DNA from: a virus
IMG/VR virus record: IMGVR_UViG_3300008110_000234
Location: 1 to 32,121 of that record
Strand: one strand, 5' to 3'
Length of the DNA stretch: 32,121 nucleotides
Positions 2,577 to 32,121 of this stretch are shown in pieces (position 1 is the first letter of the stretch; each line of letters starts with the position of its first letter). Under the pieces are notes generated by a model. That model did not search any database. It was not told where the DNA came from and saw only the letters and a program-made list of their open reading frames with translations. Position numbers and translations under genes: made by a program.

Positions 2577-2837
2577 ATGAAAACTTTGGAAATTGGCAAA
2601 AAATATCACTTACACAACGGATGGGCAAAAACATTTGAAGATGTTTGGTTCAACAATTCAGAATTGATTTCAGTTGAAGAATTGCAAAATGGTTTAGTTG
2701 AATATTTCTTCAAAACTGAACAAGGACAAACCATCATCATTGATGGTGAATTAATCAGACAATTCCACAAACCTATCACAACAAAATGTTGGATGTTCAT
2801 TGAATCACAAACACAAAATCACAACAATCATGAATGA
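2577..2837 (+). CDS. Small plus-strand cassette protein, unknown function
   Basis: 86 aa. The start at 2577 is chosen because the frame upstream of it runs through promoter site 1, and because the ATG has the A/C-rich leader (AATCACACATC-ATG) shared by the early genes. The product (MKTLEIGKKYHLHNGW...) is a small soluble protein, probably a beta-barrel or SH3-like fold judging by alternating hydrophobics, with no membrane segment. I do not recognise a family. It overlaps the next gene by 8 nt and forms a two-gene cassette transcribed against the surrounding tail and head genes. Its location and early-type promoter suggest an accessory (moron) gene, perhaps acting on the host or its defences; that is inference. 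Confidence 0.75.
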   Translation: MKTLEIGKKYHLHNGWAKTFEDVWFNNSELISVEELQNGLVEYFFKTEQGQTIIIDGELIRQFHKPITTKCWMFIESQTQNHNNHE

Positions 2838-3174
2838 AAGAAAAACTGCAAGTTATTGGCTTTTGATTACTGCCCTGAATACTGCAAAATATGCCATTGT
2901 AGAACTTGAACCATCCGGAATGAAATTCCAACACAAACAACAATTCACAATGCTGCAAAACGCAATTCATGGATTCCTGTCAAACATACAAAAAAAAACA
3001 AGTAAGGAAGACAAAGAACTTTTGGATTCAATGTCTTTTGAAAATGTTGCTGCCCTTGCTGAAACATTTGCAATGATTTCCCAAATTCCTGAACCACAAA
3101 TTGAATGGTTTTTGAATGAAACAAACAAATTGGTTTATGCTTCTGTGAACAATGAAAGAATGAAATCTAAATAA
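2830..3174 (+). CDS. Second plus-strand cassette protein, helical, unknown function
   Basis: 114 aa, started at MNERKTASYWLL because that ATG follows the leader AATCACAACAATC and overlaps the end of the preceding 86-aa gene. An earlier in-frame ATG at 2800 would overlap more. The protein looks mainly alpha-helical, with a conserved-looking C-terminal part (ENVAALAETFAMISQIPEPQIEWFLNETNKL). No known domain is recognised. The stop codon (3172-3174) touches the AT-rich start of repeat element C, and a terminator hairpin follows at 3204-3236. It is the distal gene of the early-promoter cassette inserted between the tail and head modules. Confidence 0.75.
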   Translation: MNERKTASYWLLITALNTAKYAIVELEPSGMKFQHKQQFTMLQNAIHGFLSNIQKKTSKEDKELLDSMSFENVAALAETFAMISQIPEPQIEWFLNETNKLVYASVNNERMKSK

Positions 3175-3273
3175 AATATTTATTATTATTCTTTCTTTAT
3201 TGTATGCCATTCAGGAACATCTTGAATGGCATTTTTGGCACAACAAGATGTGCCATTTGGGAACAACTGAAAG
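3174..3273 (+). repeat. Iteron element C (AT-rich tract plus three 23-bp-period dyads)
   Basis: Starts with AAATATTT and an A/T-only stretch, then CTTTCTTTATTGT, then three 18-bp dyad units beginning at 3214, 3237 and 3260, an exact 23-bp period. The best unit is GGCACAACAAGATGTGCC (3237-3254); the others are GGAACATC... and GGAACAAC.... It is about 60-70% identical by eye to element B (16381-16479, inverted) and shares layout with element A (27081-27183). It lies between converging genes. The first unit is partly remodelled into a terminator hairpin. Confidence 0.75.
3204..3236 (+). terminator. Rho-independent terminator of the 2.6-3.2 kb cassette
   Basis: ATGCCATTCA (3204-3213) pairs with TGAATGGCAT (3223-3232), a 10-bp stem with a 9-nt loop, followed by TTTTT. 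It is correctly placed 30 bp after the plus-strand gene and overlaps the first iteron of element C. Confidence 0.75.
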
Positions 3274-3275
3274 AA

Positions 3276-3593
3276 TCAGAAATCAATCTTGTTTGGTCTG
3301 AAATAGGAATAATGATTTGCCAAAATTGAATAGATTGATGACTGTTCCAATGGCAATATTTTTGCCATTTCACCAATTGCTTTTTGCTTCCCATATCTTT
3401 CCAAATATTCAGGATATATTTTCAGCACAACAAATCTGTTCACAATTGATTGCCGGATGATGTTGTGTTGAATCAAAAATCTGATGATGGTGCTGATTTC
3501 ACCAATGCCAACATCCTTGAATTGTTCATCAATCAATTCACAAAACAACTTGTTTGCATATTTCCTTTTTTTGCAGATGATGCCCTGAATCAT
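3276..3593 (-). CDS. Small phage protein downstream of the tape measure, unknown
   Basis: 105 aa (MIQGIICKKRKYANKLFCEL...). The start at 3593 is chosen because it forms an ATGA overlap with the stop of the preceding gene; an upstream ATG at 3644 would overlap it by 55 nt. The protein is basic and helical. The C-terminal part (KQKAIGEMAKILPLEQSSIYSIL) looks like a helix-turn-helix, so DNA binding is possible. It is last in the tail transcription unit and converges with the plus-strand cassette. I recognise no family. Confidence 0.65.
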   Translation of the reverse strand: MIQGIICKKRKYANKLFCELIDEQFKDVGIGEISTIIRFLIQHNIIRQSIVNRFVVLKIYPEYLERYGKQKAIGEMAKILPLEQSSIYSILANHYSYFRPNKIDF

Positions 3594-3823
3594 TGATATG
3601 TGTTTCTGAAAAAATATATCACCTTTGATACACAATTCCTGCATGACAAATCTTTTTCCATTTGCTTCTTTGCTGATGTTCCCTTTGGAATCCTTGCAAT
3701 GTGCCTGTAATAGAATGAAAACAATTTTTTGATGTCTTCCCTATCAAATGAAAAAGAATTGTTCCTTGCAAGGATTTCTTTGATTTCAGGTGTGTGTTCC
3801 TGTGGAATTTCTCTAATGTACAT
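3590..3823 (-). CDS. Small protein following the tape measure gene, unknown
   Basis: 77 aa (MYIREIPQEHTPEIKEIL...), starting 2 bp after the tape measure stop and overlapping the next gene by ATGA, so clearly part of the tail operon. It is charged and helical, with a C-terminal CRNCVSKVIYFF segment containing a CxxC pair. It has no signal peptide or obvious enzyme motif, and no function is assigned. Confidence 0.65.
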   Translation of the reverse strand: MYIREIPQEHTPEIKEILARNNSFSFDREDIKKLFSFYYRHIARIPKGTSAKKQMEKDLSCRNCVSKVIYFFRNTYQ

Positions 3824-14593: not shown

Positions 14594-15779
14594 ACCCAAA
14601 TGCCAACAATCCCTGCCCTTTTCCCTTTGTAAGCATTCCCATTGCCCAATACCGACATGCATCCCATGCATGATTGAATGCATCAATTGGCTTGTTGACC
14701 TTTTCACCTGTCTTTAATTCTCGCCATTTATAATTTTGTGCTTCCTTCAACCAATTCTTTGAATCCCTTGTGATGTGAATCTTTCCCCTTTGTTTTATCA
14801 GGTCAATGGAAAAATTGATTGAATCTGCACCCTTGTCTGCCGGAATGATGTTCCATCCAAACAACCTTAATTCTTTGATTGATTTTGGGTCTGCTGAATC
14901 TGCAAATATCATTGAATTCTTTTTAATACCCAATTCAATGAACATGTGGTGAATTTCTCTATTGGTCATGCCTGTTTGATACAACAATTCCTGTCCATAC
15001 ACTTCACCATCTGAAACACCACACATGACCAATGATGTTGGGTCAACTGAAAAACCAAAATCCAACCCATATGCTACTTTATCCAAATGTTCAGGCAATT
15101 TCTCACAAACAGAATAATCAAAAATAACACCTTCAACTTTTCCTGTCTGTCCTAAACCGTAAACCCTCCACAACATTGGGTCTGATTTCTTCAATTTCAG
15201 GATTGATTCCACAATGTTTGGTGAAACAAATGGATTGTGTTCATAATTGCTGATGAAATATGCTGTGTTATCTGCTCCAATCAACTTTTCATGCACCCAA
15301 AATTCTGTGTTTGGATTATAGTCAAGATAAACCCTTTCATCTGTCCTGATTTCCAATTCTTTATATATTGGATATGGAATTCCATTTGCTTCATTCATGA
15401 AAAGAACTTGTCTTTTCCCTGATTTTGCATCCTGTGGATTCTGATATGATGTGAATTCCACAACTGAACCATTTCTGAATGTCAAAACCCTATCTGTTTG
15501 ATTGTAGCCAATAAGATTTGCCCTGATGAATGGTGTTTGTTCAATGATGCTGAATGAATCCCTGATTGCACCTTTTTTCAGATTTGGAATATCCTGACCA
15601 ACAACTGTGATTTTCCATCCTGAATTCTCTATTGCAAGACAAAACAGAACTTGTAAGATTGAATATGTCTTTCCTGATGATGTTCCACCCTGATTGATGC
15701 AAATGATTTTCCTGTCAGATGAAACATCTGCATATTGTTCCGGAAATTTGTTCCACAAAAAAAGACATGATGTTTTCAT
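14592..15779 (-). CDS. terL: Terminase large subunit
   Basis: 395 aa from MKTSCLFLWNKFPEQYAD. This start is chosen because ATG at 15779 forms an ATGA overlap with the stop of the 40-aa membrane gene. ATPase: Walker A GGTSSGKT (~31-38), Walker B VLFMNEAN (~125-132). RNase H-like nuclease: YGLDFGFSVDP (~240), FADSADPKSI (~290) and DAFNHAWDACRYW (~370) supply the acidic metal ligands. The length and motif spacing fit the Terminase_3 (PBSX/SPP1-like) family, which packages DNA into proheads in an ATP-driven manner. It converges with a plus-strand cassette. The small subunit lies ~740 bp upstream and not next to it. Confidence 0.95.
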   Translation of the reverse strand: MKTSCLFLWNKFPEQYADVSSDRKIICINQGGTSSGKTYSILQVLFCLAIENSGWKITVVGQDIPNLKKGAIRDSFSIIEQTPFIRANLIGYNQTDRVLTFRNGSVVEFTSYQNPQDAKSGKRQVLFMNEANGIPYPIYKELEIRTDERVYLDYNPNTEFWVHEKLIGADNTAYFISNYEHNPFVSPNIVESILKLKKSDPMLWRVYGLGQTGKVEGVIFDYSVCEKLPEHLDKVAYGLDFGFSVDPTSLVMCGVSDGEVYGQELLYQTGMTNREIHHMFIELGIKKNSMIFADSADPKSIKELRLFGWNIIPADKGADSINFSIDLIKQRGKIHITRDSKNWLKEAQNYKWRELKTGEKVNKPIDAFNHAWDACRYWAMGMLTKGKGQGLLAFG

Positions 15780-15898: not shown

Positions 15899-16370
15899 TG
15901 TTTTTTGATTTTTCAAGTTCATCAATTTTTTTGATTGCCCATTCAATCCCTGAATCACCACCCCATGCATCCCACATCAAACCACCACACCCATCTGTGT
16001 ATGACACATTTTTGTTCTGCTGATGTCTTTTGAATGCTGCCATCCTTTTGATTGTTTCAATGCTGATGTTTTCCTTGTTAGCCAATTGTCTTGCCCTTGC
16101 CCAACCAACCAATGTGCCACATCCATTTTTGTTGTTGTTCTTTTCCCTGAATTCAATTGCCCTTTTTGCATTGTTTGTTGCTGCTTCCGGATAGTCATTG
16201 AATGTTTCTGCTTCTGCCCTGATTGCTTTTGCTTCTGATTCATATGTCATGGAACAAACACCATATCTTTGTTTGACATCAGGATATTCTTTGAACATCT
16301 GTTCATCTGACATGCATCTGTCAAGAAAGAACATTGATGATTCACCTTTTTTTGGTATTGGTATTGGCAT
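15888..16370 (-). CDS. 160-aa protein with a phage NNAKRAIEFR-type domain
   Basis: MPIPIPKKGESSMFFLDRCM... contains ATNNAKRAIEFREKNNN, CGTLVGWARARQLANKENIS, ETIKRMAAFKRH and a C-terminal GLMWDAWGGDSGIEWAIKKI. This combination recurs in phage and prophage proteins, sometimes fused to head or packaging proteins, and looks like a helical nucleic-acid-binding module. Two or three Cys (C19, C38, C77-like positions) may be structural. The ATG follows the leader AACACACATC and begins 10 bp after iteron element B. It probably belongs to packaging or head assembly, but the function is not established. Confidence 0.6.
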   Translation of the reverse strand: MPIPIPKKGESSMFFLDRCMSDEQMFKEYPDVKQRYGVCSMTYESEAKAIRAEAETFNDYPEAATNNAKRAIEFREKNNNKNGCGTLVGWARARQLANKENISIETIKRMAAFKRHQQNKNVSYTDGCGGLMWDAWGGDSGIEWAIKKIDELEKSKNNEK

Positions 16371-16380
16371 GATGTGTGTT

Positions 16381-16479
16381 TTTCAGTTAGGCATTTTTGG
16401 AACAACTTGTTGTGCCTTTTTGGAACAACTTGTTGTGACCAAATGGCACACAATAAAGAAAGAATAATAATAAATATTT
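16381..16479 (-). repeat. Iteron element B (inverted copy)
   Basis: In minus orientation: AAATATTT (16479-16472), an A/T-only tract and CTTTCTTTATTGTGTGCCATT, then dyads. On the plus strand the units start at 16399 (GGAACAACTTGTTGTGCC), 16422 (the same with one inserted A) and 16445 (GGCACA half-unit), an exact 23-bp period. It fills the gap between the small terminase gene and the 160-aa gene. Its first ~40 bp are almost identical to element C. Confidence 0.8.
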
Positions 16480-16516
16480 TTTATAGTACCATTTTGTTGA
16501 TGTCAACAGAATGATG

Positions 16517-16894
16517 TCAATCAGGTTCAAATGGAAGAATCTTTTCCCCTTGAATGACCTGAATGTTGAAATCAATCTTTTCCCCATCCACACCACTTAT
16601 TTCAGTACGTTCAACATATCCCCTTCTTTTTCCTTTTGTTTTCAACAGGAACAAAATGGCTGCTGTATTTCCCCCACTTACCTGTGCATACAACTGTGAT
16701 TCTGCAAAATCCAAAACAATGTCATCAATTTCCCTGACCTTTGCTGCAAATTCTGAATCTTCATTGTACCATTTGTAAAACTGTGTCCTGCTGATGTTTG
16801 CCTTGTTACATGCTGTTGTGACAACACCAAGACTTTTTTCCAACAGTTCCAACACCTTTTTTTTATTGCTGTTCGTTTTGTCATTTGTCTTCAT
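16517..16894 (-). CDS. terS: Terminase small subunit
   Basis: 125 aa. Residues ~10-45 form a helix-turn-helix of the small-terminase type (LGVVTTACNKANISRTQFYK followed by WYNED). A helical region follows (DDIVLDFAESQLYAQVSGGN) with AAILFLLKTKGKRRGY, a motif very common in phage small terminases just before the C-terminal part. It recognises pac/cos DNA and regulates the large subunit. It follows the endolysin gene with a 2-bp gap and is followed by iteron element B, so an interaction between packaging and that element is worth considering. Confidence 0.85.
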   Translation of the reverse strand: MKTNDKTNSNKKKVLELLEKSLGVVTTACNKANISRTQFYKWYNEDSEFAAKVREIDDIVLDFAESQLYAQVSGGNTAAILFLLKTKGKRRGYVERTEISGVDGEKIDFNIQVIQGEKILPFEPD

Positions 16895-17526: not shown

Positions 17527-18105
17527 TTATTGATAAAATTTTTCACCACAATGTGGACATGTTAGTTCTGTTTCGCCAATGGAATTGTCTGATTCCTGTT
17601 CATAATCATCTGCATCATCATCAATGTCATTGAAATTTGCATCATCTGATGTGTCTGTGAAATTGAAATCCATGTCTGTATTGACATATATTTCCATCCC
17701 AAAATCTTTGATTTCATCCAAATCCCATTCATTTGCAATGGATTCCCAATCAATTTCACCAAAACTGATGTTGTCTTTGATTGTCAATGCCTTCAATTGT
17801 TTAACTGTGAATGATTTTGGAATTATTTTGCATGGAATTTCTTCAATGCCCAAATCTTTACATGCCTGATATCTCATGTTCCCACCAATGACAATGTATG
17901 CATTTTTGTGCTTATAAACAAGAATTTCCCTTCCACCTAAAAATTCAGGATTGTCTTTGATGCTTTTCTTCAATGCTTCAAATCTGTTTGACCGGATGAA
18001 TCTCGGATTCTTTGGCAATCCTTTTATTTGTCCTGTGTTTGTGAAAATTTCATCAACAGGAATGAATACTGATTCAAATATTTCAATTTTTCCCATATTT
18101 TTCAA
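17527..18105 (-). CDS. ParB/Srx-like protein with C-terminal CxxC
   Basis: 192 aa. Residues ~10-115 have the ParB N-terminal fold: VDEIF near the start, then FEALKKSIKDNPEFLGGREI, VIGGNMRYQACKDLGIEEIP (the GG-x-x-R-x-x-A box) and VKQLKALTIKDNISFGEIDW. The middle C-terminal part is very acidic (Asp-rich), and the end, LTCPHCGEKFYQ, has a CxxC. Phage ParB-like proteins of this type usually sit beside terminase genes and may act as nucleases, CTPases or DNA-binding factors rather than in partition. It overlaps the upstream gene by 23 bp; a start at 18096 is also possible. Confidence 0.7.
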   Translation of the reverse strand: MKNMGKIEIFESVFIPVDEIFTNTGQIKGLPKNPRFIRSNRFEALKKSIKDNPEFLGGREILVYKHKNAYIVIGGNMRYQACKDLGIEEIPCKIIPKSFTVKQLKALTIKDNISFGEIDWESIANEWDLDEIKDFGMEIYVNTDMDFNFTDTSDDANFNDIDDDADDYEQESDNSIGETELTCPHCGEKFYQ

Positions 18106-18787: not shown

Positions 18788-19768
18788 TTATCTGTTACTT
18801 CTTTCTTGTTGATAAGAATTTAATGTATTCATTGAATATGAATTATCTTTCAAATCAAATGTTCCTGACCATTGCCTTCCGTTTCTTTTCCACCATTCCC
18901 TTCCTTGTTCTGTTGCCATTACTTGTTTGAAATTTCTAACTTCTGCAAGACCATTTTGACGAGCATAATCATTGAAACCACTTACACCCAATGTTGGATT
19001 CCCTTTTGATTCATATCCAAATCTTGCCCATGTATAATATCCATTCATAGATGAACCATAAGAACCACCTGCTGTGACTGTGATTTGATTGAATCCGTTA
19101 CTTCTCAATGAATCAACCTGACTGCTGAATATTTCCAATCCCCTTCCATCATGCTGTGTATTTTTATCAATTCTAAAATATTCATTATAAACAGTTTTGT
19201 CACGCAAATTTATCACCCTATTCATTGTAACACCTTCACCTGACACTTGCACATATGCACCATCACTTGTGTAACTTACACTTATTTGCCCACCAAAATC
19301 TTTTGGAACACCTGTGAATGAAACAATATCACCTGTTGAAAACTGTGGAAATCTGTTTGTTCCCCTTTCACCAATTGTTGCATTATAATCCTGTGTTCCA
19401 TTTTGTTGACGTTGTTGTCTTTCCTGTTCTTGTCTTTGTCTACTCCTTTCTTCTGCTTGTCTTTGTTGTTCTGCTGCTTGTCTTTGTTGTTCCTGCTGCT
19501 GCTGCTGTTGCACAATTTGCTGTCTTTGTGAAACAAGTTCATCAATTCTTCTTCTTGTGTCAACCAAATCTTGAAGAATTTGGTCTTCTTCTTCATCTGT
19601 TGTTGCATTATCTAATCTTGTATTTAAATCTGCTCTTCTTTGTCTTTCTCTGTTTATATCATTATTGATATCATCCAAACTTCTTTGGAATGCATCAGCA
19701 GGTGCAGTTTTTATGTTCTGCCCAAATCTTTGACCTGTTCTGACTGATTGTCCTGACCTTCCACCCAT
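18788..19768 (-). CDS. Poly-Gln coiled-coil protein with GNAT-like C-terminal domain
   Basis: 326 aa. Residues 1-35 are Gly/Arg rich. Residues ~35-125 form a coiled coil and a Gln/Arg low-complexity tract (RQQIVQQQQQQEQQRQAAEQ and more). From ~140 on there is a globular domain: NEYFRIDKNTQHDGRGLEIF with SSQVDSLRSNGFNQITV, then NGYYTWARFGYES and, at the end, QGREWWKRNG plus FDLKDNS. This pattern resembles an N-acetyltransferase-like fold found in phage head-associated or toxin-like proteins; the GRGL-like turn would bind acyl-CoA. It overlaps the DUF4417 gene by TAATG. Virion cargo or an injected enzyme is possible, but this is inference. Confidence 0.55.
   Translation of the reverse strand: MGGRSGQSVRTGQRFGQNIKTAPADAFQRSLDDINNDINRERQRRADLNTRLDNATTDEEEDQILQDLVDTRRRIDELVSQRQQIVQQQQQQEQQRQAAEQQRQAEERSRQRQEQERQQRQQNGTQDYNATIGERGTNRFPQFSTGDIVSFTGVPKDFGGQISVSYTSDGAYVQVSGEGVTMNRVINLRDKTVYNEYFRIDKNTQHDGRGLEIFSSQVDSLRSNGFNQITVTAGGSYGSSMNGYYTWARFGYESKGNPTLGVSGFNDYARQNGLAEVRNFKQVMATEQGREWWKRNGRQWSGTFDLKDNSYSMNTLNSYQQERSNR
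19420..19515 (-). repeat. Low-complexity CAA/CAG-type tract encoding poly-Gln/Arg
   Basis: On the plus strand there are short tandem copies of CTTGTCTTTGTTGTTC and CTGCTG units. They code for the Gln/Arg-rich segment of the 326-aa protein. The length is likely variable between relatives through slippage. Confidence 0.7.
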
Positions 19769-20939: not shown

Positions 20940-21272
20940 TTAGAATGGCAATTTTATCCCATCATTTTCTACTTGTTCAACATAATGTTCAACTGTTTTT
21001 TTGCCAACTTCAATTGACCATGCATTCAATTGGACATAAAACTTTTCCTGGTATTCCCTTCCGGATATGTTGAAAGATACCTTTGCAGGACAATTCACAT
21101 AATTTGGTAGCCTATCGAACACATATTCTGTGAACCTGTTGTGCCTGATGCTGAATTTCAATGTCTGTGGATATTGTTCATTGGTTTTCAAGATGAAATC
21201 CTTGAATGATGCTGATGCTGTCTTCTTTTCTTCAAAGACTTGAATGATTGTTCCTTCAATTGTGTAGTTCAT
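20940..21272 (-). CDS. DUF3127-like single-stranded DNA-binding protein
   Basis: 110 aa with an OB-fold pattern: MNYTIEGTIIQVFEEKKTAS, FKDFILKTNEQYPQTLKFSI, then VSFNISGREYQEKFYVQLNA with WSIE. The order (G-x-I, F-ilk, YPQT-x-kF, FNI-x-GRE-Y, AW-x-IE) is that of DUF3127 proteins, small Bacteroidetes relatives of SSB. It probably coats ssDNA during replication and recombination and would partner the YqaJ exonuclease and ERF annealing protein encoded on the same strand. It overlaps the preceding gene by ATGA. Confidence 0.8.
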   Translation of the reverse strand: MNYTIEGTIIQVFEEKKTASASFKDFILKTNEQYPQTLKFSIRHNRFTEYVFDRLPNYVNCPAKVSFNISGREYQEKFYVQLNAWSIEVGKKTVEHYVEQVENDGIKLPF

Positions 21273-21670
21273 ATGATTCTGATGTGTTTTATTTGTGATG
21301 AATGCTTTGGTACTGATATTTTGATTCCCCTGTATTCTGCCAATGTCCCTGAATTGATGTTGTGAAATATGCCAATTCTGTGCAAATGGACATAATATTC
21401 TGCATGGAACTGAATGGATGTGATTTCATCCATTTCAATTGTTGCTGTTTGGATTTCTTCTTTTGGAATATTGTCAATCCACCAATCCAATAATTGCTTT
21501 ACCATTTTTTGCTGTTTTTTTGCCTTCTGTTGAATTTTTTTGTAGGTGTGGCAATCTGTATTACCACACCCACAAAAATCACTATAATAGCCAAAAGAAT
21601 TGCAGATGAATTCATATTTGTGGGATTCTTCTGACAACAACTTCATAAAAAAATTCATGCAACCTGTCAT
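21269..21670 (-). CDS. Cys-rich protein after the exonuclease gene, unknown
   Basis: 133 aa from 21670; alternative in-frame starts are at 21658 and 21646 (MKLLSEESHKYEF), which reduce the overlap with the exonuclease gene from 59 nt. The segment FCGCGNTDCHTYKKI has closely spaced Cys and may bind zinc. A helical region (QQKAKKQQKMVKQLLDWWID) and a beta-rich end follow. It ends in an ATGA overlap with the DUF3127 gene, placing it in the recombination operon. No family is recognised. Confidence 0.6.
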   Translation of the reverse strand: MTGCMNFFMKLLSEESHKYEFICNSFGYYSDFCGCGNTDCHTYKKIQQKAKKQQKMVKQLLDWWIDNIPKEEIQTATIEMDEITSIQFHAEYYVHLHRIGIFHNINSGTLAEYRGIKISVPKHSSQIKHIRII

Positions 21671-22250
21671 GTAATTTTAGAATGTCATCTGAATTTGGAA
21701 ATACCCTTTGCACAACCATCTGAAATTGTTCCGGAAATCTTGGGTCAAATGTGACAAAATCACACCATTCTGCACCTGTTATCCACAAATATCCCTGAAC
21801 CTGCCACCAATATGTTTCAAGATAATCACCATCAGGACAATTGAAAATTTCAGGTTTTGCAGTTCTGATGATGTCAAGTTGATTTGTTGGATTGTGTGGG
21901 CATTTTACTTCAATCATTCCCATGTTCCCTGCAATGTCACATTCAATGATTCCATCAGGCAACCCATTCACAAAACCAAAAATGTCTGATTGGATTCTTT
22001 CAGGTTTTGACACATTGCAAAGATGTTCAAATTCATACTTTTTGATTGCTTCTGCTTCATTGTTGATTCCCCACCACATTGCTGTGTTTGTGATGTCAGG
22101 CATTGGAACACCCATTGCTTTGCAGATAATTTCATCTGCATATGTCAATGCAGTTTTGCCAAATCCTTTTTTGCCTGTTGACAATGCCATCACTTTTGAA
22201 AATTGGCTTGGTGTGATGCTGATGTTGTTTTTGATTTCAATTATGTCCAT
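21612..22250 (-). CDS. YqaJ/lambda-type exonuclease
   Basis: 212 aa. The PD-(D/E)xK nuclease core is clear: ITPSQFSKVMALSTG at the N-terminus, GINNEAEAIKKYE (helix Glu), GLPDGIIECD (metal Asp), MGMIEVKCP (the E-x-K), and YWWQVQGYLWITGAEWCDFV (conserved Gln). These match YqaJ viral recombinases, which resect dsDNA 5' ends to give ssDNA for the annealing protein. With ERF (28211-28801), the DUF3127 protein and the RuvC-like resolvase it forms a Red-like recombination set. The leader ACACACATCATT precedes the ATG. Confidence 0.9.
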   Translation of the reverse strand: MDIIEIKNNISITPSQFSKVMALSTGKKGFGKTALTYADEIICKAMGVPMPDITNTAMWWGINNEAEAIKKYEFEHLCNVSKPERIQSDIFGFVNGLPDGIIECDIAGNMGMIEVKCPHNPTNQLDIIRTAKPEIFNCPDGDYLETYWWQVQGYLWITGAEWCDFVTFDPRFPEQFQMVVQRVFPNSDDILKLHDRLHEFFYEVVVRRIPQI

Positions 22251-23626: not shown

Positions 23627-24100
23627 TTATTCTGCAAGTTTTTTGAAAATATTTTTTGCAAGAAATGCCAATTTGAATGCATCCCTTTTGTCCTGTTCTG
23701 TTTTGTTGCCTTTATAATTGTTTACTGTGCTATATTTTGCAAACAATGGAATGATGTCTTGATGTGTCAATTTCCTTCCTTTTGCCTTTGGGGAAATTTC
23801 ATAAACATGTTTCAACTTGTGTTTTGCATAGTCAAAAAACATTTGGCTGATTGCCTGATTCATCCCAACATTTCTGCTGATTTTTTTATCCTTCCTTACA
23901 TTGCCTGTCCTGATGAATGTCACATTCTGCAAATTGCTATTTTCGATGACCATCACAACATCATCAGGATTCAGGTCATCAACAAATTCAACAAAGGTGA
24001 TAAAGCTACCTATTTTGGGAAAATTTATTGTGTCCCCTTCGATCAGGCAACAACCAATCCCATCCTTTCTGAATGCAGGGTCAATTCCAATATATATCAT
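23627..24100 (-). CDS. RuvC-like Holliday junction resolvase
   Basis: 157 aa. RNase H-fold acidic residues are visible: MIYIGIDPAFRKDGIG (first Asp), VVMVIENSNLQN (Glu), and EQDKRDAFKLAFLAK (terminal Asp pair), the RuvC order. The central basic segment (GNVRKDKKISRNVGMNQAI) fits the DNA-binding helix. It would cleave four-way junctions during recombination and clear branched DNA before packaging. It overlaps the glucosaminidase gene by 20 nt and ends just before promoter site 3. Confidence 0.85.
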   Translation of the reverse strand: MIYIGIDPAFRKDGIGCCLIEGDTINFPKIGSFITFVEFVDDLNPDDVVMVIENSNLQNVTFIRTGNVRKDKKISRNVGMNQAISQMFFDYAKHKLKHVYEISPKAKGRKLTHQDIIPLFAKYSTVNNYKGNKTEQDKRDAFKLAFLAKNIFKKLAE

Positions 24101-25955: not shown

Positions 25956-26819
25956 TTATAGACATAATCTTTTCATGTATTCAAAAACCAATAATTTTGA
26001 ATAGATTCTTTTTGCAGGTTCAATTGTTTGTTCTGCATTCTGCATCAACTTTCTTTTTGCTGCCCTTGCTTCTGTCATGTTGGAATAATTCCTTGACTGC
26101 TCAATCAATTCCTTTTTAGCCAATTGTTTTGCCTGTTCCCAAATCTGTCCTTTGAATTCCCTGTCATCTTCAATCCATCCATTTGCACATGCAATTTCTG
26201 CATAAAATACAGGAACATCTTCCCATCCATCCCATTCAATTTCTTCACCTGATTGCATTGAAATCAACTTATCTTCTAAATCTTGCAAAACTGATTCAAT
26301 TGCCCTTCTATTTTTTTCTTCCCTTTTTGCTGCTTCAAATTCTGCATCTTCATACATTTTTTTCAAATTTATGACATCTGAAAGGATTTTGTTTCTGAAT
26401 TTCAAATATGCTGAAAGGATATCCCCCAACATTGCAATTGTAAACTGTCCATAAAATGATGACAATGTGATTCCATCCCAATAATTTGCTGCTGCCATGC
26501 TGAATGCTTCCCTAATTTCCTGAACACCCAACATTGGAAAGTTTTTATAAATGAACCGCACACATTCTTGAATACTTTCAGGTAGCATTTTGTCTTCCTG
26601 CATCCCTGAATACATCTTTGCACAAATCACAACCATTGCAGAAACAGAATTGACAACATCTGTTTTGTCCATGTTCCTGATTTGGTTTTCATGCCCTGCA
26701 ACAATCAATTTGATTCTTTCTTCTTTGCATTGGATATTAGTCAAGTTCAAATGTTGCAGATTGTTTGATGAAATTTGCAATTGATTCTTTGCCTGTTGAT
26801 TTTTGATTTGTAGTTCCAT
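25956..26819 (-). CDS. Replication-associated protein, possibly helicase loader (lambda P-like position)
   Basis: 287 aa, all-helical and charged (VVNSVSAMVVICAKMYSGMQ; GVQEIREAFSMAAANYWDGI; long Glu/Lys coiled region at ~160-260). No Walker motif is visible, so an ATPase loader of the DnaC type is unlikely. It follows the O-like initiator with an 83-nt overlap, and the leader (AATCACAAAATC) lies within that gene. By the O-P order in lambdoid phages it may load or bind the replicative helicase. The family is not recognised, and the function is inferred from position. Confidence 0.5.
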   Translation of the reverse strand: MELQIKNQQAKNQLQISSNNLQHLNLTNIQCKEERIKLIVAGHENQIRNMDKTDVVNSVSAMVVICAKMYSGMQEDKMLPESIQECVRFIYKNFPMLGVQEIREAFSMAAANYWDGITLSSFYGQFTIAMLGDILSAYLKFRNKILSDVINLKKMYEDAEFEAAKREEKNRRAIESVLQDLEDKLISMQSGEEIEWDGWEDVPVFYAEIACANGWIEDDREFKGQIWEQAKQLAKKELIEQSRNYSNMTEARAAKRKLMQNAEQTIEPAKRIYSKLLVFEYMKRLCL

Positions 26820-27495
26820 GATTTTGTGATTTTGTGTGTGATTGATTCAAATATTCTTTGCTGATGAATGTTCCCTGCCAACCATTGGCAATACATGTGT
26901 CAATTGATTCCAAAACTGCCCTTTCTGAATACTTTTCTGCCTGTTGGATGAATTGGTCAACCTTTGTACTAATTGATTTGTCTGACTTGAATTTTTTGCC
27001 AATTTCAACCCTGTATTCAAAAAACTTTTGGATTCCTTTTTTCAAATCTTCTGAAATTGATTCAGGCAAATCAAATAAAGAAATATTTCTTTTTCTTTCT
27101 TTCTTAATTGTAGGCAATTTGGGCACATCCTGTTGTTCCTTTTGGGCACAACTTGTTGTTCCATTTGGGCACAACTTGAAAGATAGGTTCTGAACACATT
27201 CTGCATCAATTTTGAAATGCAATGTTGCCGGACATCCCTTCAATTTTGTTTTTAGCAATCCGGCATTCTCCAACCTGTCAAATGCTTTTCTTTGCACTTT
27301 TGCAGATAGTGTTGTTGAATCCTGAATCTGTTGACCTGTCCTGAAAAACCAATCTTCAATTCCATCATGCAGAAACATTTTTTGTGCTGATGCTAATTCT
27401 GCATAGATGATTGATGCATCCAATCCAATCTGCTTTGCAAGTTCTTTGTTGATTGCCAAAAATGGTGTATCAATTATCATTTTTAATGCATTCAT
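26737..27495 (-). CDS. Lambda O-like replication initiator with internal iterons
   Basis: 252 aa from MNALKMIIDTPFLAINKELA; this ATG follows ACAAAATC and is preferred over 27522. Residues ~15-95 form a winged helix (SIIYAELASAQKMFLHDGIE; LSAKVQRKAFDRLENAGLL). Residues ~105-135 are a linker encoded by iteron element A. The C-terminal part (FFEYRVEIGKKFKSDKSIST...SIDTCIANGWQGTF) is a DnaD/replisome-organiser-type domain. It probably binds its own gene at the iterons and recruits the replisome. It is served by promoter site 4 and a structured ~130-nt leader. Confidence 0.8.
   Translation of the reverse strand: MNALKMIIDTPFLAINKELAKQIGLDASIIYAELASAQKMFLHDGIEDWFFRTGQQIQDSTTLSAKVQRKAFDRLENAGLLKTKLKGCPATLHFKIDAECVQNLSFKLCPNGTTSCAQKEQQDVPKLPTIKKERKRNISLFDLPESISEDLKKGIQKFFEYRVEIGKKFKSDKSISTKVDQFIQQAEKYSERAVLESIDTCIANGWQGTFISKEYLNQSHTKSQNHGTTNQKSTGKESIANFIKQSATFELD
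27081..27183 (+). repeat. Iteron element A inside the initiator gene (candidate ori)
   Basis: AAATATTT at 27081, then a pyrimidine-rich AT tract and TAATTGTAGGCAATT, then units starting at 27122 (GGCACATCCTGTTGTTCC), 27145 (GGCACAACTTGTTGTTCC) and 27168 (GGCACAAC half-unit), an exact 23-bp period. Because 23 is not a multiple of 3, the same DNA word is read as KLCPN, SCAQK and DVPK in successive copies, so conservation is for DNA. The layout matches lambda ori: dyad iterons within gene O beside an AT-rich tract. Confidence 0.8.
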
Positions 27496-27757: not shown

Positions 27758-28214
27758 GTGATTCTGATTTTGATTTTGAATACTTTCTTTTTTCCCCCCT
27801 GATTTTGACTGAATGTTCTGCCAATGTCTTCTGAACCTTCTGTGAATTTGGATGCAATTTCCTGATGAACTTGATGATTGCACAAACAAATTGCATTTTG
27901 GAATTCAATGAACCCTGTTTGACAACTGTGTCAACAATCCACCTTTTGCCCTGATCTGTGATTCCCAAAACAAAACATGTTTCAAGAATTGATTCAATCA
28001 TTTCTGCTTTGGACACACCCAAATTGGTAGCCTGTTCTGTGATGAATGCATCTTCTTCCTGCTGAAATCCCAACATCATTGTCCGGATATAATTATTGTC
28101 TTGATTCAAAGTTTTGAATGATATTATTTTTGGCATCCCTGAATGCTGTTGTGTCATAACAGCATTCAGACATACATCAACATTCCCTGAAAATTTTATT
28201 CTGATTGTTTTCAT
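27750..28214 (-). CDS. 154-aa early protein, unknown
   Basis: MKTIRIKFSGNVDVCLNAVM..., with an alpha-helical middle (AFITEQATNLGVSKAEMIES then ILETCFVLGIT) that resembles a helix-turn-helix, and a basic C-terminus (KIRGEKRKYSKSKSESHV). It overlaps the ERF gene by ATGA, implying translational coupling with the annealing protein. A DNA-binding partner in recombination, or the regulator of the five-site regulon, are possible roles. No family is recognised. Confidence 0.55.
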   Translation of the reverse strand: MKTIRIKFSGNVDVCLNAVMTQQHSGMPKIISFKTLNQDNNYIRTMMLGFQQEEDAFITEQATNLGVSKAEMIESILETCFVLGITDQGKRWIVDTVVKQGSLNSKMQFVCAIIKFIRKLHPNSQKVQKTLAEHSVKIRGEKRKYSKSKSESHV

Positions 28215-28801
28215 AATGATGAAATTGTGTCTTTTTGTTCTATGGTTAATTGATAATTTTGAAATGCTTTGTTCATCCTTTCTGTCTTTTCTGATTCAAC
28301 TGCCTGAATCCATGCAACCAATGCTGTGAACTGTTCTTCATTGACTGTCTTCTGTGTCTTCTGTGTCTTTAAATTCGCCTGTGTGATGACTTTTGTTGAT
28401 GATTGTGCATCATCATCCACATCAACAGAAATATTCAGCATAGCTGAAAATTGATATCTTTTTGCATAGGTTATTCCACCACCCAAATCTTGCAATGAAT
28501 TTGTTCCTTTGTTCCCCTGCATTGGTGAAAATGGCATCTTTGCACCTAAAAATTGACCTGATGTGTGATATATTGTTGTCACTAAATAATCACCTGCCAT
28601 TGCCTGAACAACAACCAATCCACATTCTGACAACAATGGTCTGCATGTGTGCAGGATGTTGTCAAAAGAAACATATTTGTTTCTTAAATGCTCATTCTTT
28701 TTGTCCTTTTCCAATTTTACATTTTGGAATTTTGTTTGAAATTTGACCAATGCTGCAATGATACCTTCAATGTTTTCTGTTTGAAATGTGTGCTGTTCCA
28801 T
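28211..28801 (-). CDS. erf: ERF-family single-strand annealing protein
   Basis: 196 aa. The ERF signature is present: HLRNKYVSFDNILHTCRPLL near residue 40, ECGLVVVQAMAGDYLVTTIY, the TSGQFLGAKMPFSP turn, and GGGITYAKRYQFSAMLNISV followed by DVDDDAQS (the Y-A-K-R-Y box and Asp cluster). ERF proteins anneal ssDNA in phage recombination and recircularisation. It works with a YqaJ exonuclease, here encoded ~6 kb further down. The ATG follows the leader CACACATACAAAATTTTTAAATC-type. The C-terminus overlaps the next gene. Confidence 0.9.
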   Translation of the reverse strand: MEQHTFQTENIEGIIAALVKFQTKFQNVKLEKDKKNEHLRNKYVSFDNILHTCRPLLSECGLVVVQAMAGDYLVTTIYHTSGQFLGAKMPFSPMQGNKGTNSLQDLGGGITYAKRYQFSAMLNISVDVDDDAQSSTKVITQANLKTQKTQKTVNEEQFTALVAWIQAVESEKTERMNKAFQNYQLTIEQKDTISSL

Positions 28802-31042: not shown

Positions 31043-32121
31043 TATGCTTTTGTTATGTTTAGATTGACAACTGATGCTGTGTTTGCTGTGACTGTAACTT
31101 TTGAACCTGATGCAATTGTGTTTGTCAGGGTATATGCTACTCCATCATCTTGAATTGTTATTGTTGGACTGTTCAAAATATTACTAATTGTATTTATTTT
31201 CATGTTGTATGGTGCATAAAAATCAACTGTTAATGCTGCAACCAATTCAACTGTGTACACAATGCCTTTGTTCACCCACAATGTCCCATTGTATTCCAAA
31301 TAATTGCCATTTGCAGCACCTGTGATGGACACATCATGTAATTCTGAAATTTCATATCCATTGTCAATTTTGACATATATTTTGCCATTATTGATGTGTG
31401 AATATTCAACATAACCAATCCTTACTTCATGGAATGGTGCTGTTGGTTTAACATTTGTGATTGCACCTGCTGTTGTTGGACTTAGATATAAAATATCCCC
31501 ATCACTCCATGTTTCACCCTGCAATGAACCTGTTGTGTTTATATTGTCCAATGTTCCTGTTGTTGCAATGAACCCTTCCTGATTGACTGCAATATCTTCT
31601 GCAACAATTCCCAATGTCCCTGCTGAATTTACATCTGAATCAGCCTGTGCCAATCTGACTGACAATCTTTGCCCTGTCGCACCTGCAACAAGACAAACCT
31701 GATAATTTGCCCTTTGTAGTGCAACCAATGGTGTTGTCTTATTGACCACCCTTGCAAATTCCTGTTGTCCCAATTGTGCCTGAATTGCTCCACCTTTCAA
31801 CCCAATTGCCAATGTCCCAAATGCATCATTCCATCCAATTTGACCTGTTGTTGGATTTGTTGAAACACTACTTTGAAAATTGACAATTTTAACTTTGTCA
31901 ATATCATTTCCATTCATGTCAATGTCATATGTCCCTGCACTATTACCAACTGACAAAACATCATCCAAATCCTGTGAACCACCTGTCCCTGTTAATTCAA
32001 AAAAAAAATCAGATAGAATCAGCATTAAATCATACACATTCCCTGAAAATGCAATTGGTGATGCAGGTTCAATTTGATAATTGTCAATTTCAGACACAAA
32101 AATTGATGTGAACTGATTCAT
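31042..32121 (-). CDS. Tail fibre/appendage-like protein, possibly continuing beyond the right edge
   Basis: 359 aa are visible from an ATG at the very last bases (MNQFTSIFVSEIDNYQIEPA); the gene could start further right. A beta-rich, repetitive protein: IGWNDAFGTLAIGLKGGAIQ, a middle module (LGIVAEDIAVNQEGFIATTG; WSDGDILYLSPTTAGAITNV; HEVRIGYVEYSHINNGKIYV), then KIDNGYEISELHDVSITG. The latter pattern is common in phage fibre and baseplate-attached proteins. The C-terminal ~80 residues form a separate small beta-domain. Probably host-contacting, with the lectin-like protein encoded next. Confidence 0.7.
   Translation of the reverse strand: MNQFTSIFVSEIDNYQIEPASPIAFSGNVYDLMLILSDFFFELTGTGGSQDLDDVLSVGNSAGTYDIDMNGNDIDKVKIVNFQSSVSTNPTTGQIGWNDAFGTLAIGLKGGAIQAQLGQQEFARVVNKTTPLVALQRANYQVCLVAGATGQRLSVRLAQADSDVNSAGTLGIVAEDIAVNQEGFIATTGTLDNINTTGSLQGETWSDGDILYLSPTTAGAITNVKPTAPFHEVRIGYVEYSHINNGKIYVKIDNGYEISELHDVSITGAANGNYLEYNGTLWVNKGIVYTVELVAALTVDFYAPYNMKINTISNILNSPTITIQDDGVAYTLTNTIASGSKVTVTANTASVVNLNITKA

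Follow-up and report, generated by a model that had tools for sequence, protein, structure and literature searches.

Replication origins that lie inside the gene of their own initiator are already known: the initiators of phages lambda and SPP1 bind repeated sites located within their own coding sequence, beside an AT-rich tract that unwinds. The closest described systems add further features to this plan. Phage SPP1 has two origins, oriL and oriR, each consisting of direct repeats and an AT-rich DNA unwinding element (PMC6316719, PMC3485210). While oriL lies in gene 38, oriR is intergenic and ~12-13 kb off, with similar repeats and an AT-rich tract (PMC3485210, PMC6316719). The SPP1 initiator on oriR is thought to stall replication forks, leading to recombination-dependent concatemer synthesis and the change from theta to sigma replication (PMC3485210, PMC6316719). 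In the RepA_N plasmids (pSK41, pPR9), the initiator has a winged-helix N-terminal domain, a central linker encoded by the origin and a separate C-terminal domain, and the N-terminal domain and origin are swapped as a module (PMC5703833). Here we analyse a 32,121-nucleotide stretch of phage DNA (positions 1 to 32,121 of IMG/VR record IMGVR_UViG_3300008110_000234; hereafter the window), in which an array of dyads with an exact 23-bp period lies inside the replication initiator gene (element e27) and recurs, together with its AT-rich tract, at two non-coding sites (elements e16 and e3). This three-copy layout and the 23-bp rule described below vary the known plan.

Results

The units of the e27 array start at 27122 (GGCACATC, with one mismatch), 27145 and 27168 (both GGCACAAC), with a spacing of exactly 23 bp, and the array scores 103 in Tandem Repeats Finder, the top score among the 47 arrays of the window. 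The underlying unit is an 18-bp imperfect dyad, GGMACAACWWGTTGTKCC (pattern GGMACAAC-WW-GTTGTKCC), repeated within the initiator coding sequence and adjoined by an AT-rich tract (Table 1). With up to three mismatches, this dyad is found at five sites in the window versus 0.35 expected, a number reached in none of 100 shuffles, and the five sites are distributed over e27, e16 and e3. The array copies are translated as KLCPN, SCAQK and DVPK, each in another frame, and array and AT-rich tract together encode about residues 112-148 of the initiator. A first-pass annotation of the window had reported the three units and their exact period, the AT-rich tract beside them and the different residues encoded by each copy, and all of these were recovered. 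It had also claimed that selection acts here on the DNA, which agrees with a single-gene test on L006, a second, 99.98% identical contig from this phage, where 0 of 300 protein-keeping synonymous codon permutations reached the 23-bp signal, and with the variation of the linker residues in homologues.

The initiator is related to O proteins, matching phrog_678 (E = 6e-14) and phrog_9773 (E = 5e-11), both annotated as 'replication initiation O-like'. Its AlphaFold2 model, built from an alignment of 36 proteins taken from the window and the loci, consists of a confident winged helix (residues ~22-117), a disordered linker (~118-157) and a helical C-terminal domain (158-212), and the repeats occupy the centre of the gene. 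The model supports the winged-helix N-terminus proposed in the first-pass annotation, and its first Foldseek hits include DnaD and, at marginal E values, RepA_N N-terminal domains (4pql, 5kbj, 4pt7, 4pta). A replisome-type C-terminus had been proposed as well; some relatives do have DnaD-type or Phg_2220_C C-termini, although Pfam recognises no such domain in the initiator of the window. Indeed, Pfam gave no match for this protein, RepA_N (PF06970) did not match at E up to 1, and sequence-profile searching against the PDB yielded no significant hit. The relative L089 matches PF06970 at E = 0.006, below the cut-off.

Relatives of the initiator in known phages are distant (22-34% identity). Alignment-based searches yielded 72 viral and 8 genomic loci, and 44 non-redundant genes were tested for DNA self-match at each lag from 14 to 33 directly behind the winged helix. 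At lag 23 the mean z was 4.41 versus 2.74 ± 0.10 in protein-preserving synonymous shuffles, a difference of 14.5 standard deviations (sd), and none of the other lags rose above 4.1 sd. By comparison, random windows elsewhere in these loci gave a mean z of 1.72 at lag 23, and the winged-helix parts of the 44 genes one of 1.21. Individually, 28 of the 44 genes pass the shuffle test. Three copies of the core AACNAGTT at 23-bp spacing are present in 22 of the 44 loci (other spacings, two at most; shuffles, mean 3 and maximum 7), and this core recurs as the outer letters of the dyad vary by gene (e.g., GTCAAAAAACTTGACC, AACTTAACAACCAGTTGTTAAAG, GTTTCGTCCGCGGACGAAAC). Lambda O, used as a positive control, returned lags 23, 20 and 24. 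Mean identity of the homologues to the initiator of the window is 39% in the winged helix-turn-helix (wHTH), 16% in the array and 11% in the AT-rich tract. Spacing and core are therefore kept across the family and the linker residues vary, as the first-pass annotation had anticipated. We found no description of this 23-bp rule in the open-access literature; single-phage cases may be described elsewhere.

Behind the array, homologues have an AT-rich tract that is often (AAT)n-like, with periods of 12-15 bp. Asn-rich linkers (AATAATAAT repeats) were observed in the initiators L008, L046, L051, L078, L145 and many others; they look like DNA-level unwinding tracts and not protein features, and the non-coding e3 and e16 retain TTATTATTATT. 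In a homologue encoded by the Bacillus smithii plasmid pDSM4216, the corresponding position is occupied by a 23-bp array whose core is CCAAAATGG, followed by an AAT-rich tract; since this plasmid encodes a second helix-turn-helix (HTH) protein, the homologue is not proven to be its Rep.

Selection of the repeats at the protein level might be suspected, as Asn and Lys abound in the low-complexity linkers of the family. However, synonymous shuffles take away most of the signal, 23 is no multiple of 3 and the linker residues are poorly conserved. An assembly artefact is countered by the second contig, in which e16 and e27 are unchanged, and we assign virtually no weight to either explanation. Chance or low complexity as the source of the array was likewise rejected, based on the codon shuffles and on windows elsewhere in the same loci.

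The pattern can also be found from DNA alone. We scanned 2.9 million viral contigs blindly for the DNA pattern, reading all frames, and obtained 11 loci besides the window's own phage. Eight of these (L095-L099, L101, L103 and L104; contigs L069 and L071 reappear here as L096 and L097) lie in genes with a winged-helix or HTH-like N-terminus and the array behind it, a class judged by eye where the locus had not been found by protein similarity. The arrays of L100, L102 and L105 are not in genes of this type: outside obvious initiator genes, the 23-bp AACNAGTT pattern is located at 305-358 in L100, 8131-8184 in L105 and 13222-13275 in L102, and L100 and L105 have one array in common.

Phages with a TerL 63-67% identical to that of the window phage carry differing combinations of initiator domains. 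L109 differs in its C-terminus but has the same winged-helix type, with an array of AACAAGTT at a 23-bp period, and L113 has the same winged-helix type and C-terminus with only a weak array. An HTH_36 domain is joined to the same C-terminus in L107, which has no 23-bp signal, and in L112, where the N-terminal domain is of yet another kind, the array position holds CCAAATGGG repeats with a 22-bp period. In these four phages, array type appears to follow the N-terminal domain of the initiator, as expected if this domain reads the array.

The module of e27 is present twice more in the window. Anchored on a common 'TTGT..GC' word, the three 116-bp modules align without gaps, with pairwise identities of 77, 78 and 73 of 116 (63-67%), ~8-9 sd over a background of 32.5 ± 5.0 (all windows, both strands). 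They have one order in common: an AT-rich tract, a half dyad, two full dyads and a half dyad that ends near AACTGAAA, with the outermost half dyad degenerate in e16. The AT-rich tracts of e3 and e16 include AATATTTATTATTATTCTTTCTTTATTGT, and these two elements are most alike in their AT part (40 of the first 48 columns), where e27 is held by coding. The first-pass annotation had thus correctly placed the repeats in the initiator gene and had missed the two further sites. The distance between e27 and e16 is 10.7 kb and that between e16 and e3 13.2 kb; the remaining arc would be at least 10.6 kb if the genome is circular. The second contig (L006, 1-2406) extends the sequence by 2.4 kb on the right-hand side, where a portal-like gene was identified by reading, and the window therefore covers an incomplete genome; no further copy of the module was found in this extension. 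This near-identical contig, IMGVR_UViG_3300008107_001030, lacks window positions 14630-14792, 19189-19262 and 31887-32064, the first of which includes part of the TerL C-terminus; these differences may be strain variation or arise from assembly. Within e3 (3205-3236), a 9-bp stem, TGCCATTCA/TGAATGGCA, is followed by TTTTT and could double as the terminator of the plus-strand gene ending at 3174.

What could e16 and e3 be, other than copies of an origin? They might be operators or transcription signals of a phage regulator, e27 then being a chance resemblance or an intragenic operator. Indeed, e16 lies just upstream of the gene start at 16370, and the stem of e3 with its T run is readable as a plus-strand terminator. 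However, the three contexts differ (a convergent gap, a co-directional gap and the inside of a gene), promoter and terminator scans gave no excess, the AT-rich tract is conserved along with the repeats and the 23-bp array is family-wide in the linkers of initiator genes, making regulatory sites quite improbable. Partition or packaging sites for the ParB-like protein or TerS were also considered, as dispersed multi-copy dyads look centromere-like, a ParB-like gene is present and e16 is beside terS. Yet relatives retain ParB-like and, in some cases, TerS-like orthologues, and the dyad of the window, at up to three mismatches, was absent from all 13 relatives searched; in addition, array type tracks the initiator wHTH, and scanning of the proteins revealed no ParA. 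We rejected this very improbable assignment because the sites do not track those genes in relatives.

Extra initiator sites can titrate initiators, as is known from iteron replicons and datA-type sites. Similarly, e27 might be the sole origin, with e3 and e16 as decoys that titrate the initiator and thereby limit re-initiation. Dyads alone would suffice for this, yet e3 and e16 share the AT-rich tract and the order and spacing of the origin. Retention of the AT-rich tract argues against pure titration sites, and we consider decoys unlikely.

The phage further encodes an annealing protein, an exonuclease, a single-strand DNA-binding protein and a Holliday junction resolvase, a recombination kit of the SPP1 type (Table 1). 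Next to the initiator, orthologues of the gene at 25956-26819 are found in L107 and L112, and a DnaC-like protein with a P-loop (GDVGTGKS) takes this position in L109 and L113; the window gene is a candidate non-AAA helicase loader that would be exchanged with an AAA+ one. A GIY-YIG-like homing endonuclease frame seems, by eye, to lie between a small gene and terS at ~9000-9600 of L107.

Table 1. Origin-like elements, their parts and associated genes in the window.
Feature	Position	Strand	Remarks
Element e27, putative main origin	27070..27185	+	Inside initiator gene; order AT tract to repeats, antisense to gene
e27 dyad unit 1, GGCACATCCTGTTGTTCC	27122..27139	.	
e27 dyad unit 2, GGCACAACTTGTTGTTCC	27145..27162	.	
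e27 half unit, GGCACAAC	27168..27175	.	
e27 AT-rich tract, proposed DNA unwinding element	27078..27115	.	Encodes TIKKERKRNIS
Element e16	16376..16491	-	Non-coding, between terS-like gene (16517-16894) and gene starting at 16370
e16 dyad unit, GGAACAACTTGTTGTGCC	16399..16416	.	
e16 dyad unit, GGAACAACTTGTTGTGAC	16422..16439	.	
e16 AT-rich tract	16452..16485	.	
Element e3	3162..3277	+	Nearly all non-coding; gap of the convergent gene pair 2830-3174 (+) and 3276-3644 (-)
e3 degenerate dyad unit, GGAACATCTTGAATGGCA	3214..3231	.	
e3 dyad unit, GGCACAACAAGATGTGCC	3237..3254	.	
e3 half unit, GGAACAAC	3260..3267	.	
e3 AT-rich tract	3173..3204	.	
Initiator gene, 261 amino acids	26737..27522	-	phrog_678, AlphaFold2 model, Foldseek
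Gene overlapping initiator 3' end	25956..26819	-	Helicase-loader candidate by position; no family match
ERF single-strand annealing protein	28211..28801	-	PF04404, E 2e-19
Holliday junction resolvase-like	23627..24100	-	phrog_1770, E 2e-5
YqaJ/RecE-like exonuclease	21612..22250	-	PF09588, E 5e-13; phrog_149
Single-strand DNA-binding protein	20940..21272	-	phrog_4932, E 2e-13
ParB-like protein	17527-18105		phrog_620, E 3e-17
TerS-like gene	16517-16894		Adjoins e16

Discussion

Based on these findings, e27 is very probably an origin bound by the initiator, and we propose that it is the main replication origin, located in the linker region of the phage's own initiator gene. The winged-helix domain would bind the 18-bp dyads, probably as one dimer per dyad, stacked every 23 bp, and the AT-rich tract beside them would melt and serve as the site where the replicative helicase is loaded. 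The need to preserve the origin sequence in the DNA that encodes the linker would explain the disorder of this part of the protein. The first-pass annotation had suggested a lambda-type intragenic origin; the intragenic origin is supported, although the repeats are a family-wide 23-bp dyad array and not the lambda iteron, which is spaced 20/24/23.

We further suggest that e16 and e3 arose by duplication of the complete origin module into non-coding DNA, and that the same initiator binds them. They would probably act as secondary origins and/or as initiator-bound fork barriers, like oriR of SPP1, and such barriers could switch theta replication to recombination-dependent concatemer synthesis with the help of the phage ERF protein, exonuclease, single-strand DNA-binding protein and resolvase. 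It is the analogy with lambda and SPP1, together with the matching recombination kit, that leads us to propose e27 as the main origin and e16 and e3 as secondary origins or barriers. An oriR-like role of e16 and e3 is tentative, at slightly less than even odds. The full proposal is that the phage has three functional origins (or one plus two fork-barrier or secondary sites), more than 10 kb apart and served by one initiator, within a widespread phage and plasmid class whose origins are recognisable in the DNA alone, by AACNAGTT-type dyads with a 23-bp period in the initiator gene; we give it a probability of about 0.4.

Several observations weigh against the reading of e27 as main origin and of e16 and e3 as secondary sites. 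Taken alone, 16 of the 44 homologues fail the shuffle test, and several AT-rich ones have weak arrays. The Foldseek hits to RepA_N are marginal, with E values from 8.5e-3 (best) to 5e-2 at a probability of ~1. GC skew is negative nearly throughout the window, with no switch at an origin. No second array was found in relatives, whether their loci were searched with their own unit or whole records with the generic core; it should be noted that many of these records are fragments, making this absence only indicative. The function of e3 and e16, which have no counterpart in relatives, is thus without comparative support, and this lineage may have gained the extra copies recently.

Origins have been mapped in few phages; with a rule of dyads spaced by exactly 23 bp in the linker that follows a winged helix, they could be predicted for many phages and certain plasmids from Bacteroidota, Bacillota, Fusobacteriota and other groups. 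In addition, e27 illustrates clearly how the same DNA can hold two codes, and a phage with three dispersed origin copies would allow a direct test of whether additional origins serve as barriers that trigger concatemer synthesis, as suggested for SPP1.

Among the known systems, lambda ori likewise consists of 18-bp dyads that are repeated midway along the initiator gene and flanked on the 3' side by an AT-rich tract, and the PHROG matches of our initiator are O-like. However, the window phage has a regular 23-bp spacing, the AACNAGTT core and three modules, whereas lambda has a spacing of 20/24/23, other dyads and one described ori. RepA_N initiators of the pSK41 type have the same winged-helix/linker/C-terminal layout and modular swapping, and are among the Foldseek hits with marginal E values (4pql, 5kbj, 4pta); in contrast, the initiator described here has no Pfam RepA_N match, comes from a phage and not a plasmid, and is accompanied by extra origin copies. 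Fusobacterium phage phiBB encodes a 28% identical O-like initiator with a near-palindromic 23-bp array in the same place, followed by an A-rich tract, but its dyad has other letters and its complete genome contains a single array. SPP1 resembles the window phage in having a further copy of repeats and AT-rich tract in intergenic DNA, remote from the initiator gene (here e16 and e3, with 10.7 kb between e27 and e16), and the recombination kit is similar; there are three copies in the window phage and two in SPP1. The pair oriL and oriR of SPP1 is the nearest described parallel.
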